From positions 62,001 to 126,000 of the forward strand of contig JAKPDW010000021.1 of assembly GCA_029552245.1 (NCBI GenBank): a DNA stretch of 64,000 nt, read 5' to 3'. How positions within the stretch are numbered: the stretch's first letter is position 1; every line of letters begins with the position of its first letter. Source of the DNA: Deltaproteobacteria bacterium (GTDB lineage: Bacteria; Desulfobacterota; Desulfomonilia; UBA1062). Under the pieces are notes generated by a model that saw nothing but the letters and a program-made list of their open reading frames with translations, was not told where the DNA came from and did not search any database. Made by a program: the position numbers and the translations under genes. Below, piece by piece: positions 5,782 to 16,845 of the stretch.

Positions 5782-6042
5782 GCACGAACGATACACCACG
5801 CGTGCACAGAAAGCAAACCGGGGGTTCGCCTTCCGCCCCCCGGCACACTCCTCCCTTCACCTGCCCTTCGATTCCATGGGGATAGCGGGGGAACCCCGGC
5901 CCCGTACCCTTCCCACCGGGGAAGAGGTCCGCCCGCCGTCAAGGCGGAGCGATGCGTCGGTGCACGATGGAGGCGACATGGCAGGAAGACGCCGCCGGGG
6001 CATCCCCGGCCGGAGGGACTGCCGGCTCACCGGTCGTGTCCC

Positions 6043-6072
6043 TTTACTCGGGCCCGGCCACTCGTGTATGAT
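6043..6072 (+). promoter_or_regulatory. Promoter immediately before glgA (leaderless mRNA candidate)
   Basis: TTTACT (6043-6048) and TATGAT (6067-6072) are separated by 18 bases. The -10 box ends only six bases before the glgA ATG at 6079, so transcription would start at or very near the start codon. No Shine-Dalgarno sequence is present, which agrees with a leaderless message. Confidence 0.5.
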
Positions 6073-6078
6073 AGACAC

Positions 6079-7503
6079 ATGGAATCATTGAGGGTGCTGT
6101 TCTGTTCCTCGGAGGTCACGCCGTACGCCAAGACAGGGGGCCTTGCCGACGTGAGCGCCGCCCTGCCCGCCGAGCTCAGGCGCCGGGGGGTGGACTGCAC
6201 CGTGGTCATGCCCCTCTACAGGGAGATCATGAACGCGCGCCTCCAGCTGAGGCCGCGCTTCACCCTCTCCGTGCTCACCGGGGCCGGGCCCACGGAGGCA
6301 CAGGTGTATTCCCACAAGGAGATCTTGTTCATCTCCCACCCCCTCTTCTCTGACCGGACGGGCCTCTACTCCTACTCGGGGTACGACTACCCCGACAACC
6401 TCGAGCGCTTCTCCCTGTTCTCGAGGGCATGCGCCGAGCTCGTGCGGGCCCTCGGCAACATCGACGTGGTCCACTGTAACGACTGGCAGACCGCCCTTGT
6501 ACCGGCCTACCTCAGAGACTCCCTCCAGACGGAGGTCGGATGCCTCTTCACGATCCACAACCTCGCCTACCAAGGTCTCTTCGACGCCGTCCTGTGGCCC
6601 ATGCTCTTTCTGCCCCACGAATACTTCAACCCCGAGTGCATGGAGTTCTACGGCAGGATCAACGTCATGAAGGCGGGGATCGTGTTCTCGGACGCGGTCA
6701 ACACGGTCAGCCCCACGTACGCCCGCGAGATCCAGACACCGGCGTTCGGGTGCGGCCTCGAGGGGCTCCTGTCCTCGGTCTCGCACAAGCTCACGGGGAT
6801 CGTCAACGGCATAGACACCGACACCTGGAACCCGGAGACCGACGAACACATAGCCGGTACGTACTCGAAGGCCGACTTGAGGGGAAAGGCGCTCTGCAAG
6901 AGATCCCTCATGGACGCCTTCTCCCTGGATCCGACCGACGCACCCGTCTTCGGTCTCATCGGCCGCCTCGTGGAACAGAAGGGCGTCGACTGCGTGCTGG
7001 AGGTCATCCCGGGGCTCCTCCAGGAGGGCGCGAGGGTGGTGGTCCTCGGCAACGGGAACCCCGCGTACGAGAAACGGTTGAAAGAGCTCGAGGCCTCGCT
7101 CAAGGGCCGGATGGGGGTCCACATCGGCTTCGACGAGAGGCTCGCACACATGATCGAAGCAGGGTCGGACTTCTTCCTCATGCCCTCCAGGTTCGAGCCG
7201 TGCGGCCTCAACCAGATGATCAGCATGAGGTACGGGACCATCCCCATCGTTACCCCTGTGGGCGGCCTCAAGGACACGGTGAAGGCCTTGGGCGAGACGG
7301 ACAGGCCCTGCGGCATACGGGCGGCCTCCCCCTCGGCGGTGGACCTTGAGCACGCGGTTCGGGAAGCCGTGAGGATCTACACACAAGACAAGGCCCTCTT
7401 GAATGCCATGATATCCAATGCGATGGAACAGGATGTGAGCTGGGATGCCCCTTCCAGTGAGTACGCGGATCTGTATCGTATTTGCAAAAAACGAGAGAAA
7501 TGA
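6079..7503 (+). CDS. glgA: Glycogen synthase GlgA
   Basis: This is a 474-residue GT5 ADP-glucose-dependent glycogen synthase, the usual length for bacterial GlgA. The N-terminal glucan/ADP-glucose motif KTGGLADVSAALPAEL, the inter-domain IVNGIDTDTWNP and the C-terminal PSRFEPCGLNQM (with the conserved Glu near the acceptor site) are all present. The enzyme extends alpha-1,4-glucan chains in the cytoplasm. The frame is open far upstream through the pilZ gene on the other strand, but homology begins at MESLRVLFCSSEVTPYAKTGG, so the ATG at 6079 is the start. A promoter sits directly in front. A GH57 glucan-acting enzyme at 51.7-53.8 kb may work on the same polymer. Confidence 0.93.
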   Translation: MESLRVLFCSSEVTPYAKTGGLADVSAALPAELRRRGVDCTVVMPLYREIMNARLQLRPRFTLSVLTGAGPTEAQVYSHKEILFISHPLFSDRTGLYSYSGYDYPDNLERFSLFSRACAELVRALGNIDVVHCNDWQTALVPAYLRDSLQTEVGCLFTIHNLAYQGLFDAVLWPMLFLPHEYFNPECMEFYGRINVMKAGIVFSDAVNTVSPTYAREIQTPAFGCGLEGLLSSVSHKLTGIVNGIDTDTWNPETDEHIAGTYSKADLRGKALCKRSLMDAFSLDPTDAPVFGLIGRLVEQKGVDCVLEVIPGLLQEGARVVVLGNGNPAYEKRLKELEASLKGRMGVHIGFDERLAHMIEAGSDFFLMPSRFEPCGLNQMISMRYGTIPIVTPVGGLKDTVKALGETDRPCGIRAASPSAVDLEHAVREAVRIYTQDKALLNAMISNAMEQDVSWDAPSSEYADLYRICKKREK

Positions 7504-7525
7504 GCCGATATCGAAAGCTCCTCAC

Positions 7526-7546
7526 TTATCGACATTTTGTCGATAA
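7526..7546. repeat. Perfect inverted repeat in the glgA-dnaA spacer
   Basis: The arms TTATCGACA (7526-7534) and TGTCGATAA (7538-7546) are exact reverse complements around a TTT loop. Each arm differs from the DnaA box TTATCCACA at one base. No U-run follows on the plus strand, so it is not an obvious terminator. The downstream stretch 7590-7690 is clearly richer in A and T than its surroundings. It may be a DnaA operator, part of an origin, or a site for another dimeric regulator. Confidence 0.55.
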
Positions 7547-7766
7547 CCCGGCCGGGCTGTGGTGGATCCGATCTCCTGAACACTTTGTCCCGAAATGAGA
7601 TCCAAAGTTCTTTTTTTTGGTATCTCGTTGATATTTCTCGCGTATTCGAGAATTCCCCAAAAGAAACCTCTTCTCAGGATAACGGCCATGGTTTGCCTTT
7701 GACGTTTGACCGACCCGCGGTCATCATGGCGGGCGTTGATTGAGGTTCATCTCAGTGGGGGATTGC

Positions 7767-9113
7767 GTGGACCATCTTGCAATGATCAAGGATTCCATCC
7801 TGTTACGGGCAAAGGGTACACCGGATGCGGCTCTTCTCGAGCAGGTCTCGTTCACCGAGGAAGGGGACACGGTCGTCGTCGAGTGTCCATCCGTGTTCGC
7901 GCAGAAGTACCTCGGCAAGATGTACCGGGACCTCATCACCCAGGCCGCCAGATCGCACCTCGACAGAAAGGTGGACGTGGACTTCAGGGTGACGGACCCT
8001 GCCAAGCAGGATCACGGTTCATCCCGCACCATGGACCGCACCCCGGTGCAGATGAGCCTGCCCGCATGCTCTGAGCCCCAGGCCTCGACCGGGCTCAACG
8101 CACACTTCACGTTCGATGAGTTCGTCGTGGGGAGCTGCAACGCCTTCGCATACGAGGCGGCCCAGGCTGTCTCCAGGGGCGAGTGGGCCAGGTACAACCC
8201 CCTCTTCTTCTACTCTGACATCGGGCTCGGCAAGAGCCACATCGCGCACGCGATAGGAAACGACGTCCTGTCCCGAAAACCAAGGACCCCGGTGCGTTTC
8301 GTGTCCGCAAGGGACTTCGCCCACCACTACGTGAACTCGGTGCGCAACGACTGCATGAAGACCTTCAGGAACCTCTACAGCAGCGCCTCGATGGACGTCC
8401 TGTTCATCGACGACGTGCATCTTTTCAAGAACAAGGAGAAGACGCAGCTCGAGTTGTGTCATGTGCTGGATGACCTCATCGGCGCCGGCAAGCAGGTCAT
8501 CCTGTCGGGGTTCAGGCCCCCCGCCTCCATCCCCCATATCGAGAACGGGCTGCGTTCCCGGCTGTCATCGGGCCTGAGCATCAACATCAAGCGGCCCGAC
8601 AGGGATACCAGGGCGAGGATCGTCCTGCACAAGGCGAACAAGAACGGCGTGACCATACCCGACGAGGTCGTCGACTTCATCAGCGAGAACGTGCACTCGA
8701 ACATCCGCGACCTGGAGAGCGCGGTGCTGACCATCTCCGCCATGAGCTCCCTCATGAAGCGGCCGGTGTCGATGGACCTCGCCCGAGAGCTCCTCGACGG
8801 GACGTTCAAGAAGCAGCAGACGATGACGATCCCCGCGATCATGAGCCTCGTGGCGAAGAGCTTCTCGGTCCACACGGAACAGCTCGTCTCGCCCTCCCGC
8901 AAGAAGGAGATCGTGTACCCGCGCCAGGTGGCGATATACCTGTGCAGGCGCTACACCGGCGAACCGCTCCAGGCCATAGGCGAGGCGTTCATGAGGAAGC
9001 ACTCCTCGGTCATCCACTCCCTCGAGACCATAGAGAACCGCTACACCTGCGACCTGGCCGTCAAGCGCGACATCGACTACCTGGTCGAGAAGATAGAGAG
9101 CGAGCTCGCGTGA
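7767..9113 (+). CDS. dnaA: DnaA-family replication initiator, divergent
   Basis: This 448-residue protein has all DnaA parts: a domain I-like N-terminus, a short linker, an AAA+ core and a DNA-binding C-terminus. Walker A is GLGKSH, Walker B is VLFIDDVHLF, the sensor II region is HSNIRDLESAV, and domain IV starts SRKKEIVYPRQVAIYLCRRYTG. Two deviations are notable: GLGKSH instead of GLGKTH, and AFMRKHSSVIHS where the DnaA signature normally has a DHSTV/DHTTV core. It may be the only DnaA or a paralogue. I chose the GTG at 7767 because GGGGGA precedes it; a TTG at 7740 and an ATG at 7782 are alternatives. The 263-base upstream spacer holds a DnaA-box-like inverted repeat. Confidence 0.82.
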   Translation: MDHLAMIKDSILLRAKGTPDAALLEQVSFTEEGDTVVVECPSVFAQKYLGKMYRDLITQAARSHLDRKVDVDFRVTDPAKQDHGSSRTMDRTPVQMSLPACSEPQASTGLNAHFTFDEFVVGSCNAFAYEAAQAVSRGEWARYNPLFFYSDIGLGKSHIAHAIGNDVLSRKPRTPVRFVSARDFAHHYVNSVRNDCMKTFRNLYSSASMDVLFIDDVHLFKNKEKTQLELCHVLDDLIGAGKQVILSGFRPPASIPHIENGLRSRLSSGLSINIKRPDRDTRARIVLHKANKNGVTIPDEVVDFISENVHSNIRDLESAVLTISAMSSLMKRPVSMDLARELLDGTFKKQQTMTIPAIMSLVAKSFSVHTEQLVSPSRKKEIVYPRQVAIYLCRRYTGEPLQAIGEAFMRKHSSVIHSLETIENRYTCDLAVKRDIDYLVEKIESELA

Positions 9114-12253: not shown

Positions 12254-13309
12254 ATGTTTCTCGAGAAGAATCTCCTGGGACTGGATATCGGTTCACAGTC
12301 CATCAAGATGGTGGATATCGCGAAGACTCGCAGCGGCTATCAGCTCAAGTCGATGGGCATCGGTCTGATCCCTGCCGAGTGCATCGTGGACAAGGACATC
12401 ATCGATTCCGAGACCGTGGTGGACACCATCAAGAACTTGAGGGAGAACCTGAAGGTCCGCACGCGCGGGTCCGCGACGGCCATCTCGGGCCACTCGGTCA
12501 TCGTGAAGAAGGCCGAGCTGGCGCTCATGAGCGAGGCCGAGCTCAGGCAGAACCTGCCCATCGAGGCCGAGCAGTACATCCCCTTCGACATCAACGACGT
12601 CTACCTGGACACCTTCATCCTGGGGGAGAGCATAGAGCGCTCCGACATGATGGACGTGCTGTTCGTGGCGGCGAAGAAGGAGCTCGTCGACGAGTACGCC
12701 TCCGCAGTGCGCAACGCGGGGCTCAAGCCCATGCTCATAGACATCGACGTGTTCTCCCTCGAGACCATGTACGAGGTCAACTACCCGGATGCGCCCGAGA
12801 GCATCGTCGCTCTCGTGAACATCGGGGCCTCGATGATCAACGTGAACGTCCTCAAGGACAACATGTCCATCTTCGCCAGGGACATCTCCATGGGCGGACG
12901 CCAGCTCACCGAGCGCATCCAGCGGGAGTTCAACGTGAGCTTCGAGCGGGCCGAGAACATCAAGACGGGGGCCGACATCGAGGGGATCGACCTCGAGAAG
13001 ATCAACTACATCTTCAAGATGGCGGCCGAGACCTACGTGCAGGAGATCAGGAGGACCCTCGACTTCTTCCTGTCGACCATGGTCAACGAGAACATCGAGA
13101 AGATCTACATAAGCGGAGGGTCCTCGAGGATCCCGGGCATCACGAGGCTGCTCGAGAAGCAGATGGAGATCCCCGTCGAGATAGTGAACCCCTTCAACAA
13201 CATCTCATGGGACGAGCGCGTATTCGATCCCGAGTACATGGCCTATATCGCCCCGCAGATGGCAGTGGCTGTGGGCCTTGCACTAAGGAGGGCCGACTAC
13301 AAATGGTAA
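12254..13309 (+). CDS. pilM: Type IV pilus assembly protein PilM
   Basis: This is a 351-residue actin-like (FtsA/SHS2 fold) cytoplasmic ATP-binding protein. It begins LLGLDIGSQSIKMVDIA, the phosphate-1 loop of PilM, and the second phosphate region is IYISGGSSRIPG (about residues 287-298). PilM binds the cytoplasmic tail of PilN and connects the inner-membrane platform to the motor ATPases. A GGTGAGG Shine-Dalgarno precedes the ATG. Its last seven bases overlap the start of pilN. Confidence 0.95.
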   Translation: MFLEKNLLGLDIGSQSIKMVDIAKTRSGYQLKSMGIGLIPAECIVDKDIIDSETVVDTIKNLRENLKVRTRGSATAISGHSVIVKKAELALMSEAELRQNLPIEAEQYIPFDINDVYLDTFILGESIERSDMMDVLFVAAKKELVDEYASAVRNAGLKPMLIDIDVFSLETMYEVNYPDAPESIVALVNIGASMINVNVLKDNMSIFARDISMGGRQLTERIQREFNVSFERAENIKTGADIEGIDLEKINYIFKMAAETYVQEIRRTLDFFLSTMVNENIEKIYISGGSSRIPGITRLLEKQMEIPVEIVNPFNNISWDERVFDPEYMAYIAPQMAVAVGLALRRADYKW

Positions 13310-13836
13310 AGATCAACCTCCTCCCCATCCGTGTCGAGCTGAAGAAGAGGGCCCTGATCGAGCACGTCGTGCTCCTCTTGCTGTGCGTCACGCTGGTCCT
13401 CATCAGCGAGTATTTCGTCCAGCACTCCATGGTGTCCAGGCTGGACTCCCTGAAGAAGGAGATCGCCGACACCAAGGTCGAGATCAAGCGGCTCACCGCA
13501 GAGGCCGGCGAGATCGAGAAGTTCAAGAAGCAGAAGCAGGAGCTGGAGAAGAAGCTCGACGTCATCAGGGACCTCAACGCGAAGAGAACCGGGCCGGTTG
13601 AGGTGCTCGACGAGCTGAGCATGATCATCCCCGAGAAGGCGTGGCTCACCTCCTTCACGAACAAGGGCGACACCGTGGTTCTCGAGGGCGCCGCGGTCGA
13701 CAACACGACGATAGCGGCGTTCTTGAAGCAGCTCCAGGCATCCAAGCACTTCGACAACGTGAACCTTGTCCTGTCAAGGCAGGAAGGCGGCCAGCAGAAG
13801 TTCTCCATTACCTGCAAGATCAAGCTCTCGTCATGA
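13303..13836 (+). CDS. pilN: Type IV pilus assembly protein PilN
   Basis: This is a 177-residue bitopic inner-membrane protein. The N-terminal MVKINLLPIR is the PilN tail that PilM binds; a membrane segment follows (about 20-40), then a coiled coil (about 45-95) and a periplasmic ferredoxin-like domain. It forms the alignment complex with PilO and PilP. The start overlaps the pilM stop, with AAGGAGG about 11 bases upstream. Its stop overlaps a possible pilO start as ATGA. Confidence 0.95.
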   Translation: MVKINLLPIRVELKKRALIEHVVLLLLCVTLVLISEYFVQHSMVSRLDSLKKEIADTKVEIKRLTAEAGEIEKFKKQKQELEKKLDVIRDLNAKRTGPVEVLDELSMIIPEKAWLTSFTNKGDTVVLEGAAVDNTTIAAFLKQLQASKHFDNVNLVLSRQEGGQQKFSITCKIKLSS

Positions 13837-13847
13837 GGTCAGCGACC

Positions 13848-14483
13848 ATGGACAAGATCATAGACACGCTGTTGCGCCAGAAGCCCCTCGTGAAGGTCCT
13901 CGTCCTGGCGGTCGTGCTGGGACTGGTCGTGGGCGTCTACTGGCAGTTCTTCTTCAGACCCATCCAGGCCGAGATAGCCGCGGTTGAGCCGGAGCTGAAC
14001 CAGCTGAAGGCCGAGCTCGCGGCAAAGAAGGAGATCGTCAAGGAGAAAGCGAGGTACCTGGCCGAGCTCGAGAAGACCAGGGAAAAGCTCTATGTGGCGT
14101 TGAAGCAGCTCCCCGACAAGAGCGAGATCCCCACCCTGCTCGAGAACGTCTCCTCGCTCGGTACCGCCGCCGGTCTCCAGTTCAAGCTCTTCAAACCCAT
14201 GCCCGAGGTCCCGAAGAACTTCTACGCGGAGATCCCGGTTGACATCGAGGTGGAGGGCACCTTCCGCGACGTCGTGTCCTTCTTCGACAACGTGTCGAAG
14301 ATGCCGAGGATCGTGAACATCGTGAACATCACCATGGACAAGCCGCACAAGAACCCCACGGGCGGGACCCTGGTGAACACCACCTGCAACGCGGTGACGT
14401 ACAAGTTCATCGAGTCTGCTTCCCCGGAGGGCGGGCCGGCCAAGCCCGCAGGAAACGATACGAAGGAGGTGACGAACAAATGA
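13848..14483 (+). CDS. pilO: Type IV pilus assembly protein PilO
   Basis: This is a 211-residue inner-membrane protein with one N-terminal membrane segment (about 15-35), a coiled coil (about 40-80) and a periplasmic domain containing IPVDIEVEGTFRDVVSFFDNVS, typical of PilO. It pairs with PilN and contacts PilP. I chose the ATG at 13848 because GAGG lies nine bases upstream and PilO proteins usually begin MDK or similar. The ATG at 13833, which overlaps the pilN stop as ATGA, would add five residues and is possible. The gene ends with an ATGA overlap into pilP. Confidence 0.93.
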   Translation: MDKIIDTLLRQKPLVKVLVLAVVLGLVVGVYWQFFFRPIQAEIAAVEPELNQLKAELAAKKEIVKEKARYLAELEKTREKLYVALKQLPDKSEIPTLLENVSSLGTAAGLQFKLFKPMPEVPKNFYAEIPVDIEVEGTFRDVVSFFDNVSKMPRIVNIVNITMDKPHKNPTGGTLVNTTCNAVTYKFIESASPEGGPAKPAGNDTKEVTNK

Positions 14484-15013
14484 CAAGGGTTCTGACCTCA
14501 CTGTTCGTACTCTGCCTCCTCATGTCGGCGGCGTCCTGCACGGGGGGGTCGCAGGCCCCGGCGCCGGCCCCCGTGAAGAAAGCACCCGCAGCCGGAAAGG
14601 TCGAGGCGGAAAAGCCGGTGCCCGTGCTCGAACAGGTGGAAGAGCAAAAGCCGCCGGAATACCAGGTGGTGGGCGTGCGTGACCCGTTCCAACCCTTCGC
14701 GGGCCTGAAACCCGCCGAGTCCATGATCTCGGGAGAGATCGGCAAAGGGGTGGACCCGTTGCAGCAGCTCTCCCTCGCCCAGCTCTACCTCGTGGGCGTG
14801 ATCATGGGCAAACAGAACAAGGCGCTGCTGCAGGACACCACCGGACTGGGGTACATCGTCCACGAAGGGACCCTCATAGGAGAGAACAACGGCGTGGTCA
14901 CGAAGATCACGAAGGACTCCGTTACCGTCAAACAGCACTTCAAGGACTACATGGGACGCGTGAGCACCCGCGAGGTCGTCCTGGCGCTCAGGAAGGAAGA
15001 GGGGGTAAAGTAG
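14480..15013 (+). CDS. pilP: Type IV pilus assembly lipoprotein PilP
   Basis: This is a 177-residue lipoprotein. The signal peptide ends in a lipobox (SAASC, Cys at about 20). A proline/alanine-rich linker (about 25-65) follows, then the PilP domain with RDPFQPF, the short motif at the head of PilP and GspC homology regions, and a beta-rich end. PilP links the PilNO inner-membrane complex to the PilQ secretin in the periplasm. The start overlaps the pilO stop as ATGA and the stop is two bases before the pilQ ATG. Confidence 0.94.
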   Translation: MTRVLTSLFVLCLLMSAASCTGGSQAPAPAPVKKAPAAGKVEAEKPVPVLEQVEEQKPPEYQVVGVRDPFQPFAGLKPAESMISGEIGKGVDPLQQLSLAQLYLVGVIMGKQNKALLQDTTGLGYIVHEGTLIGENNGVVTKITKDSVTVKQHFKDYMGRVSTREVVLALRKEEGVK

Positions 15014-15015
15014 GC

Positions 15016-16845
15016 ATGAAGAGAGACACCATCCTTTTGACCATACTAGCCATCGGATTACTGGTCCTGCCGGGGGCCGCGCATGGCCTGAGCATCAAGA
15101 GCGTGGACTTCCTGAACCTCGACAAGACGTCCAGGCTCCAGATAGGTATCGACGGCAAGGCATCCTACGACGTGAACAGGTCCGGGAACAACGTGATCCT
15201 GAGGATCAACAAGGCCACCATACCGGCCCACCTCGCACGCCCCTACATCACGAGGGAGTTCCCAAGCGCCGTCGACCAGATCATCCCGAGACAGGACAAG
15301 GCGGACGTCGTCTTCGAGATCACCTTGAAGCAGGTGACACCCTACTTCGTGTCCCAGGACGGCAAGCTCCTCATCATGGACTTCGACACCCCGGCGGACA
15401 TGCAGGCGAGAGCCGCCGCCCCGGCCCCGAAGGCGGCGCCGGTCCTGTCCGGCCAGCAGGCGGCCAGGAAAACCGAGAGTTACGTCAAGGGTCTCACCAC
15501 GAACGAGGCCCCGCAGAGCACAATCATCGACACGGACACGGGGCCGAAGTACAAGGGTGAGCGCATCACGCTCGACTTCCAGAACGCCGACATCCACAAC
15601 ATCCTGAGGATCATAGCCGACGTGAGCGGCATGAACATCGTGACCTCCGACGAGGTCAAGGGCACGGTCACCATCAGGCTCAAGGACGTCCCGTGGGACC
15701 AGGCCCTCGACGTCGTGCTCGAGAGCAAGGACCTCGACAAGATGACCATGGGCAACGTGATCCGCATCGCGCCCGCGGACAAGATCAAGCAGGCCCAGGA
15801 GAGGCAGCTCTCGTCGAAGAAGACGCAGGAACAGCTCGAGCCCCTCGTGACATCGGTGATCCCGGTGAACTTCGCCAAGGCATCTGAGATCGCATCGACC
15901 ATCAAGGGCAAGGAGGTGGGGCTGCTCTCGGAGCGCGGGAACATCACCGCCGAGAACAGGACCAACGTGCTCATCGTCAAGGATATCCGCAAGAGCGTGG
16001 ACGAGGTCACGGCCATGGTGAAGAAGCTCGACAAGCCCACCCCGCAGGTGCTCATCTCCGCGCGGATCGTCCAGGCGGACACCAGCTTCACCAAGGGACT
16101 CGGCGTCCAGTGGGGCGGGTCGACGAGGAACCAGTCCGGCAAGTACCTGTTCGGGCTATCCGGCGTGAACACGGGCGCCACGGTCAACCCGTTCGACGCA
16201 TCGGTGACCTCGGGCGGCAGGCCCATGTGGTCCACGGACCTCGTGCCCACGCCCTCCATGGCGGTCAACTTCCCGACGAACCAGGCCGCCGGCTTCGGCA
16301 TCACCGTCGGCAGGCTCGGCTCGACCGCAGCGACCCTCGATCTCAGGCTGGACATAGGCGAGACGTTGGGCAGCGTGAACGTGCTGTCCAGGCCGAAGAT
16401 CGTGACCATGGACAACAAGAAGGCCACCATCCGCCAGGGCGAGAAATACCCCTACATCGTCCGCGACGAGAACGGCCAGCTCTCCACCGAGCTCAAGGAC
16501 ATAGACCTGGTCCTCGAGGTCACCCCGCGCATCGCCTTCGACGGGAGCGTGAACATGGAGGTGAGCGTGAAACGCAACTCCCTCGGCTCGATCACGAACC
16601 AGCTGGGCGACCCGTAGATCGCCGCCAGGGAGGCGGTGACCGAGGTCCTGGTGAAGAACGGCGAGACGAGCGTCATCGGCGGCATCATCGAGGAAGAGGA
16701 CCGGAGCAACATCACGCAGGTCCCGTTCTTGGGGAACATCCCGGTGCTGGGCTATCTCTTCAAGGGCACGGAAAAGTCGAAGATCAAGAAGGAGCTCCTC
16801 ATCTTCATAACGCCGCAGATCATAGAGCCGCTCGCGTTCCAGTGA
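15016..16845 (+). pseudogene. pilQ: Type IV pilus secretin PilQ, interrupted by an in-frame TAG
   Basis: The gene spans 609 codons plus a normal stop. It encodes a signal peptide, an AMIN domain (about 25-125), an STN/N0 domain (about 175-245, with ADIHNILRIIADVSGMNI), N1 repeats and a secretin barrel. Codon 534 (16615-16617) is TAG. The same frame then continues with IAAREAVTEVLVKNGETSVI and the secretin signature VPFLGNIPVLGYLF, ending at 16845. Without the last 75 codons the outer-membrane barrel would be incomplete. The residue just before this I-x-x-REA block is variable in secretins, so one base change (for example CAG, AAG or TCG to TAG) explains it. It may be a true mutation, readthrough or a sequence error. 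TAG is an ordinary stop for pilP, pilT and ftsH here, so general recoding is unlikely. Confidence 0.88.

Follow-up and report, generated by a model that had tools for sequence, protein, structure and literature searches.

The locus described here raises the question of whether a chromosome initiator and the DNA sequence that it reads have changed together, and whether the spacer carrying that sequence is the origin of replication. The window, i.e. the whole 64-kb stretch of DNA that was analysed, contains a glgA-like gene followed by a spacer (7504-7766) and dnaA; further along, at 12254-16617, lies an ordinary run of PilM/N/O/P/Q-like genes typical of a type IV pilus operon, recognised from translations only. 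A preliminary description had pointed to an inverted repeat around TTT within the spacer and to an AT-richer stretch, and both were recovered: the repeat, TTATCGACA-TTT-TGTCGATAA, occupies 7526-7546 and starts 22 bp past the stop of the glgA-like gene, and the 2-kb segments 6001-8000 and 7001-9000, with 60.8% and 59.8% GC, are among the lower, though not the lowest, of the values found for all 2-kb segments (58.7-67.5%). The features of the locus are listed in Table 1.

Table 1. Features of the dnaA locus (positions in the window)
Feature	Position	Strand	Basis or remark
Left box TTATCGACA, position 6 = G	7526..7534	+	Counterpart at 23 of 24 family dnaA genes
Right box TTATCGACA	7538..7546	-	3-bp gap from left box
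Conserved ATAAnCG block, upstream of -35	7677..7685	+	Alignment of 22 upstream regions
Likely dnaA promoter, TTGACG-17 bp-CATCAT, in conserved block	7699..7727	+	Consensus scan; 22 aligned upstream regions
dnaA	7767..9113	+	GTG start, set by comparison with relatives; preceded by GGGGG
Walker A GLGKS	8223..8237	+	Translation; invariant in 12 aligned relatives
Domain IV helix-turn-helix, turn deletion and RKHSSV	8967..9050	+	HMMER alignments to solved DnaAs; predicted helices
Lys420 codon (457-aa frame), equivalent of E. coli Asp433	8997..8999	+	K in 23, R in 1 of 24 family genes

The DnaA-coding open reading frame spans 7740-9113, the start being moved to the GTG at 7767 by alignment with relatives. 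The frame scores 391.4 bits against TIGR00362 (cut-off 343.9), is matched by both PF00308 and PF08299, and its predicted structure, albeit of modest quality (mean pLDDT 73.8, pTM 0.42), has solved DnaAs as its eleven best structural matches. It has domains III and IV, the Walker A motif and the helix-turn-helix (HTH) in common with canonical DnaA (TIGR00362; E. coli, B. subtilis), and judged from these matches it is a bona fide DnaA, very probably the chromosome initiator. It is also the sole DnaA match detected in the source genome (3.27 Mb, 95 contigs, 99.3% complete), in which no second dnaA was found. The P-loop GLGKSH, which had been described as altered, is indeed present (G162-L163-G164-K165-S166-H167) but does not change across 12 aligned relatives; as serine is permitted in the Walker A motif, the sequence reads as that of a normal and unremarkable Walker A.

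The DNA-reading motif is another matter, as the altered KHSSV core of the preliminary description was confirmed, in the form RKHSSV, together with a turn deletion that the description had overlooked. In HMMER alignments the HTH of the window DnaA reads FMRKHSSVIHS, as against FGGRDHTTVIHA in B. subtilis, with the recognition motif RDHTTV converted to RKHSSV: the residue before the HTH histidine, D433 in E. coli, is lysine, the two threonines after that histidine are both serine, and the turn is shorter by one residue. The canonical RDHTT-type motif with D433 is thus replaced by RKHSS with a turn deletion. The HTH helices are predicted at residues 410-416 and 421-437 and therefore, in this modest-quality model, Lys420 would immediately precede the recognition helix. 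The order to which the source genome belongs consists of one family (f1; 24 genomes in 10 genera), in which 21 of the 24 genomes gave a DnaA match and 24 dnaA genes were obtained, two each in G003, G018 and G022. RKHSS was also found in all 19 f1 loci (L002-L020) collected separately from genome contigs, a set that overlaps in part with the organisms of the 24-gene set. Second K433 dnaA copies are carried by three of the 24 genomes (L042 in G018, L043 in G022 and L044 in G003). In PMC7561715 and PMC5043019 residue 433 is counted among the base-specific contacts of DnaA, the latter describing the 433-434 dyad as highly conserved, and PMC8235120 assigns the D433 contact to box position 7, not 6.

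Within the window TTATCGACA is present twice, both times in the repeat, against an expectation of 0.12, and two copies arose in just one of 100 shuffles. Five further copies occur singly on five other contigs of the source genome, which in total holds seven TTATCGACA and four canonical TTATCCACA. Among the 24 f1 dnaA genes, 23 are preceded by the repeat with a score of at least 17 out of 18 and a gap of 3 bp in all 23, whereas 200 shuffled sequences, 25 for each of 8 of the 24 regions, reached 15 at most; the one gene without it is L044, the second dnaA copy in G003, while both dnaA copies of G018 and of G022 bear the repeat. The exact pattern TTWTCKACA-N2..3-TGTMGAWAA was found in 8 of 297 genomes of the phylum, these being 8 of the 10 f1 genomes sampled and none of the 287 others, with one site in each, a gap of 3 and every site upstream of dnaA, and the two remaining f1 genomes (G004 and G007) carry one-mismatch forms. 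At position 6, where the canonical box has C, the 46 arms of the 23 repeats have G in 14, T in 31, A in 1 and C in none, i.e. a keto base in 45 of 46, and a similar distribution (T 31, G 15, A 2, C 1; n=49) is obtained from all sites in the f1 dnaA upstream regions; a canonical TTATCCACA lies 126 bp upstream of dnaA in G018. The consensus scan for promoters returned one candidate, compared to 0.4 expected from shuffles. Among the literature matches listed we recognised no report of TTATCGACA as a DnaA box, and those for TTATCGACA with dnaA concern, as judged from the listing, Staphylococcus aureus.

A counterpart of the repeat with the amino bases C or A at position 6 was present in 21 of 118 genomes, and in none of the three f1 genomes of that set. 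In 19 of the 21 this mirror pattern is found no more than 500 bp 5' of the DnaA match, the gap being 2 each time; it is located elsewhere in G076 and G147, and G108 has two additional copies elsewhere. All 19 DnaAs concerned (10 and 9, read in two sets) are of the long-form D433 type. A convergent box pair upstream of dnaA thus recurs in the phylum, and in the f1 version position 6 is changed and the gap is one base longer. In 42 long-form D433 relatives C occupies position 6 at 97 of 212 sites (upstream C 53, A 29, G 13, T 6, n=101; downstream A 53, C 44, T 8, G 6, n=111), the coding background for C being 9 of 39 in f1 and 22 of 67 in the D433 relatives. A survey of 80 outgroup loci from 39 families established C6 sites near dnaA in all 18 families with a long-form D433 DnaA, in 3 of the 8 with a short-form D433 DnaA (three of these 8 lack sites altogether) and in 1 of 13 families without D433 (9 of the 13 have sites). 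The family f2, which has D433 and is of the same class as f1, has C at 6 of 28 sites and G at 8. No TTWTNNACA site was present near dnaA in 7 short-turn outgroup families, and no TTATNNACA-type repeat upstream of dnaA was seen in the short-turn outgroup loci when these were scanned for 9-base inverted repeats with no more than one mismatch, of which a maximum of four were listed for each locus. Other arrangements upstream of dnaA include TTAGTCACA with a gap of 2 in L095 (D433, short turn) and TTATCAACA-GG with a TTATAAACA arm in L119 (long turn, N433).

The spacer upstream of dnaA had also been put forward as an origin candidate, in favour of which are its convergent boxes, the AT-richer stretch, its adjacency to dnaA, and the frequent presence of a box pair immediately 5' of dnaA in D433 relatives. 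The GC skew, however, keeps its prevailing sign across dnaA, apart from scattered bins of opposite sign, in the three contigs followed (C43 of the source genome, 142 kb; G018:C17, 357 kb; G006:C40, 189 kb), and no sign change was found at the dnaA spacer in any of them. In the two dnaN contigs followed the skew turns instead at or near dnaN, a gene that did not share a contig with dnaA in any of the 8 genomes tested. For G018:C16, of which 160 kb were analysed, the cumulative minimum falls approximately 0.7 kb before dnaN, and C24 of the source genome displays a broader turn at about 49-60 kb, with dnaN at 60-61 kb, the skew fading after 90 kb and being weakly negative beyond 100 kb. All 8 genomes have a parS-like site (at most 2 mismatches) at a distance of 1.8-1.9 kb upstream of dnaN, a second and weaker one being present in G016, as compared to one site in 2 of 8 genomes when parS was read backwards. 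Visual inspection of the translations gives the order parA-parB-spacer-dnaN-gyrB-gyrA for the source genome. The parB-dnaN spacer, delimited by a rough stop-codon rule, measures 164-192 bp in 16 of 21 genomes (three are shorter and two were not determined), and its AT content ranges from 52 to 79%, the source genome having the lowest of the 21 (52%). Each of the 21 spacers bears 2 to 5 box-like sites, that of the source genome three. With a skew turn, a nearby parS-like site and a spacer with several boxes that is AT-rich, albeit only 52% AT in the source genome, oriC is likely to be the parB-dnaN spacer, on a contig other than that of dnaA, and the origin does not lie at the repeat (7526-7546). 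The glgA-dnaA spacer as chromosome origin was rejected on the skew and is very improbable. In dnaA orientation the skew is mostly negative on both sides in the window, G018:C17 and G006:C40, and dnaA therefore appears to be on the lagging strand in all three contigs.

The presumed oriC carries boxes of its own, T[AT]TNNACA being found 72 times in the 21 parB-dnaN spacers against 10.3 expected. Position 6 of these sites is A in 35, G in 23, T in 11 and C in 3. A pure keto rule, with G or T only, fails here, as A is the commonest base, and the rule is therefore weakened to 'not C': over the oriC and dnaA upstream sites of f1, C is found at 4 of 121 as compared to 9 of 39 in the coding background, a comparison that ignores that the f1 sites are not independent of one another, for which reason we give no p-value from Fisher tests. 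Slightly looser sites are arranged in tandem on the same strand in 19 pairs at 8 bp (0.04 expected), an unusual spacing; box-like 8-mers such as TATGAACA and TATCGACA are arranged in this way in the presumed oriC of the family (L164/L166 of G000:C24, and L158-L163, L165 and L186-L198). A count made without assuming any box returned TATCGACA as the most shared 8-mer, present in 12 of 21 presumed oriC spacers and 11 of 24 f1 dnaA upstream regions. This lineage shares with DnaA systems of the E. coli/B. subtilis type the presence of boxes both upstream of dnaA and at the presumed oriC, but where the canonical box TTWTNCACA has C6 the lineage has G or T (repeat) or A, G or T (presumed oriC).

In a tree of 104 DnaAs made by a quick method (24 from f1, 80 outgroup), f1 forms one clade (support 100) whose stem branch is 1.91 changes per column long, and therefore many residues besides 433 have changed too. 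The clade is nested in a short-turn group of 60 rows, in which residue 433 is D, N, T, S, H, Y, E, Q, K or R; the short-turn group extends across the phylum, its outgroup loci (within L056-L124) having D, N, T, S, H, Y, E or Q. Loss of D433 is not exclusive to f1, D433 being missing in 47 of the 104 DnaAs, 24 of those 47 in f1. The f2 DnaA, with D433, lies on the opposite side of the tree, which suggests replacement or old paralogy; the f1 DnaA has the short turn and that of f2 the long turn, though the two families share a class. K/R433 with keto boxes is confined to one clade and represents one event, and counts of sites or genomes therefore overstate independence; an independent-pairs test of residue 433 against C6 on the tree had 2-4 pairs, too few to reach significance, and no second K/R433 lineage was present among the 80 outgroup loci fetched, all from the phylum of the window.

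Taken as sequence evidence, the above points to a bona fide DnaA with shifted box specificity and a dnaA-linked operator distinct from oriC, a reading that we consider probable. Against it count the boxes of f2, in which C is infrequent despite D433, the lack of the repeat at L044, the canonical TTATCCACA copies of G018 and the source genome, and the low AT content and three sites of the source genome's own parB-dnaN spacer. Domain IV of the window DnaA would read an altered DnaA box, the replacement of D433 by K or R and the one-residue turn deletion accompanying the loss of C at position 6, and the repeat would be a convergent pair of altered boxes that has stayed with dnaA, while the parB-dnaN spacer, as the likely origin, would bear boxes of a related altered kind. 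DnaA may bind the repeat, which stands roughly 150 bp 5' of the dnaA promoter, and would there most likely control its own gene, by analogy with the dnaA autoregulation of E. coli and B. subtilis treated in PMC13220808, which states for B. subtilis that DnaA boxes lie in the dnaA promoter region, likewise in the window. From the systems covered there the window differs in its strict inverted repeat of 3-bp gap some 150 bp upstream of -35, a putative operator. As to the cause of the changed preference, we infer a role for residue 433, in that Lys or Arg could donate a hydrogen bond to G-O6 or T-O4 where Asp could accept one from the amino groups of C or A. PMC8235120, however, puts the D433 contact at position 7, and therefore the f1 contact must shift or act indirectly; this one-base shift is the weakest step of the mechanism. 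A class-wide box shift together with HTH changes has a precedent in the Epsilonproteobacteria, with TTCAC-core boxes, for which PMC5043019 gives T at position 5 and variation at residues 435, 438 and 439 with C6 retained, unlike in the window lineage. Thermotoga maritima DnaA likewise pairs a divergent HTH with a divergent box, ACCTACCAC (PMC10316083), which is dissimilar to TTATNNACA; in the HMMER alignment its HTH aligns as R-S-H-P.

The changed preference might alternatively be no preference at all, any base being tolerated at position 6 and C having been lost by drift after the contact was relaxed. The oriC sites, which take A, G and T (35, 23 and 11 of 72), agree with this, as does the rarity of C where outgroup families have a residue other than D at 433 (1 of the 9 such families that have sites), but the keto base in 45 of 46 repeat arms and the depression of C below the f1 coding background (4 of 121 versus 9 of 39) argue for selection, the sites in both cases not being independent, and we regard relaxation as rather unlikely. 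Binding of the repeat by another regulator is improbable. Operators of BlaI/CopY-like proteins contain TACA..TGTA, and a TACA-n-TGTA core does occur in the CTACA variants of the repeat; against such a regulator, the top 8-mer held in common with the presumed oriC is TATCGACA, the repeat occurs once per genome and upstream of dnaA in all 8 exact-match genomes, and it accompanies both dnaA copies of G018 and G022.

The start of the repeat 22 bp after the glgA-like stop would suit an RNA hairpin or terminator behind that gene, yet in 22 of the 24 best-scoring repeats (the poor match of L044 included) the arms differ such that one or more RNA pairs are lost, a terminator scan found none, and the second copies L017 and L019 keep the repeat behind a different upstream sequence. 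The broken arm pairing and the absence of a terminator led us to discard this explanation, to which we give hardly any credence. That the window DnaA is not the initiator and that an undetected second initiator acts at dnaN is highly improbable: dnaA is strongly divergent and no longer lies at the presumed origin, but one DnaA copy was found in a genome that is 99.3% complete, both the AAA+ domain and domain IV are present in it, and matching boxes occur at the presumed oriC. It had been anticipated that an origin placed by skew next to a canonical dnaA elsewhere, and a repeat lost from relatives, would speak against a joint change of initiator and box. The skew indeed locates the origin elsewhere, but no canonical second dnaA was found in the source genome and the repeat is kept in relatives.

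Co-evolution of initiator and box, raised as a possibility in the preliminary description, is supported by the sequence comparisons, since the K433 family has a keto-type repeat where 19 D433 relatives have an amino-type one, and the presumed oriC sites avoid C6. It is conceivable, and we advance it tentatively, that an order-level lineage has switched its origin code, such that K/R433 DnaA with non-C6 boxes would be orthogonal to D433 with C6, residue 433 and position 6 forming a natural specificity switch. A lineage in which initiator and box have both been replaced is a natural setting in which to test how an essential initiator can change its DNA code, and K/R433 DnaA with the altered boxes is a candidate for an orthogonal replication-initiation pair. 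The dnaA gene of this lineage, remote from the presumed origin but with a conserved box pair, also helps to tell an operator role from an origin role.
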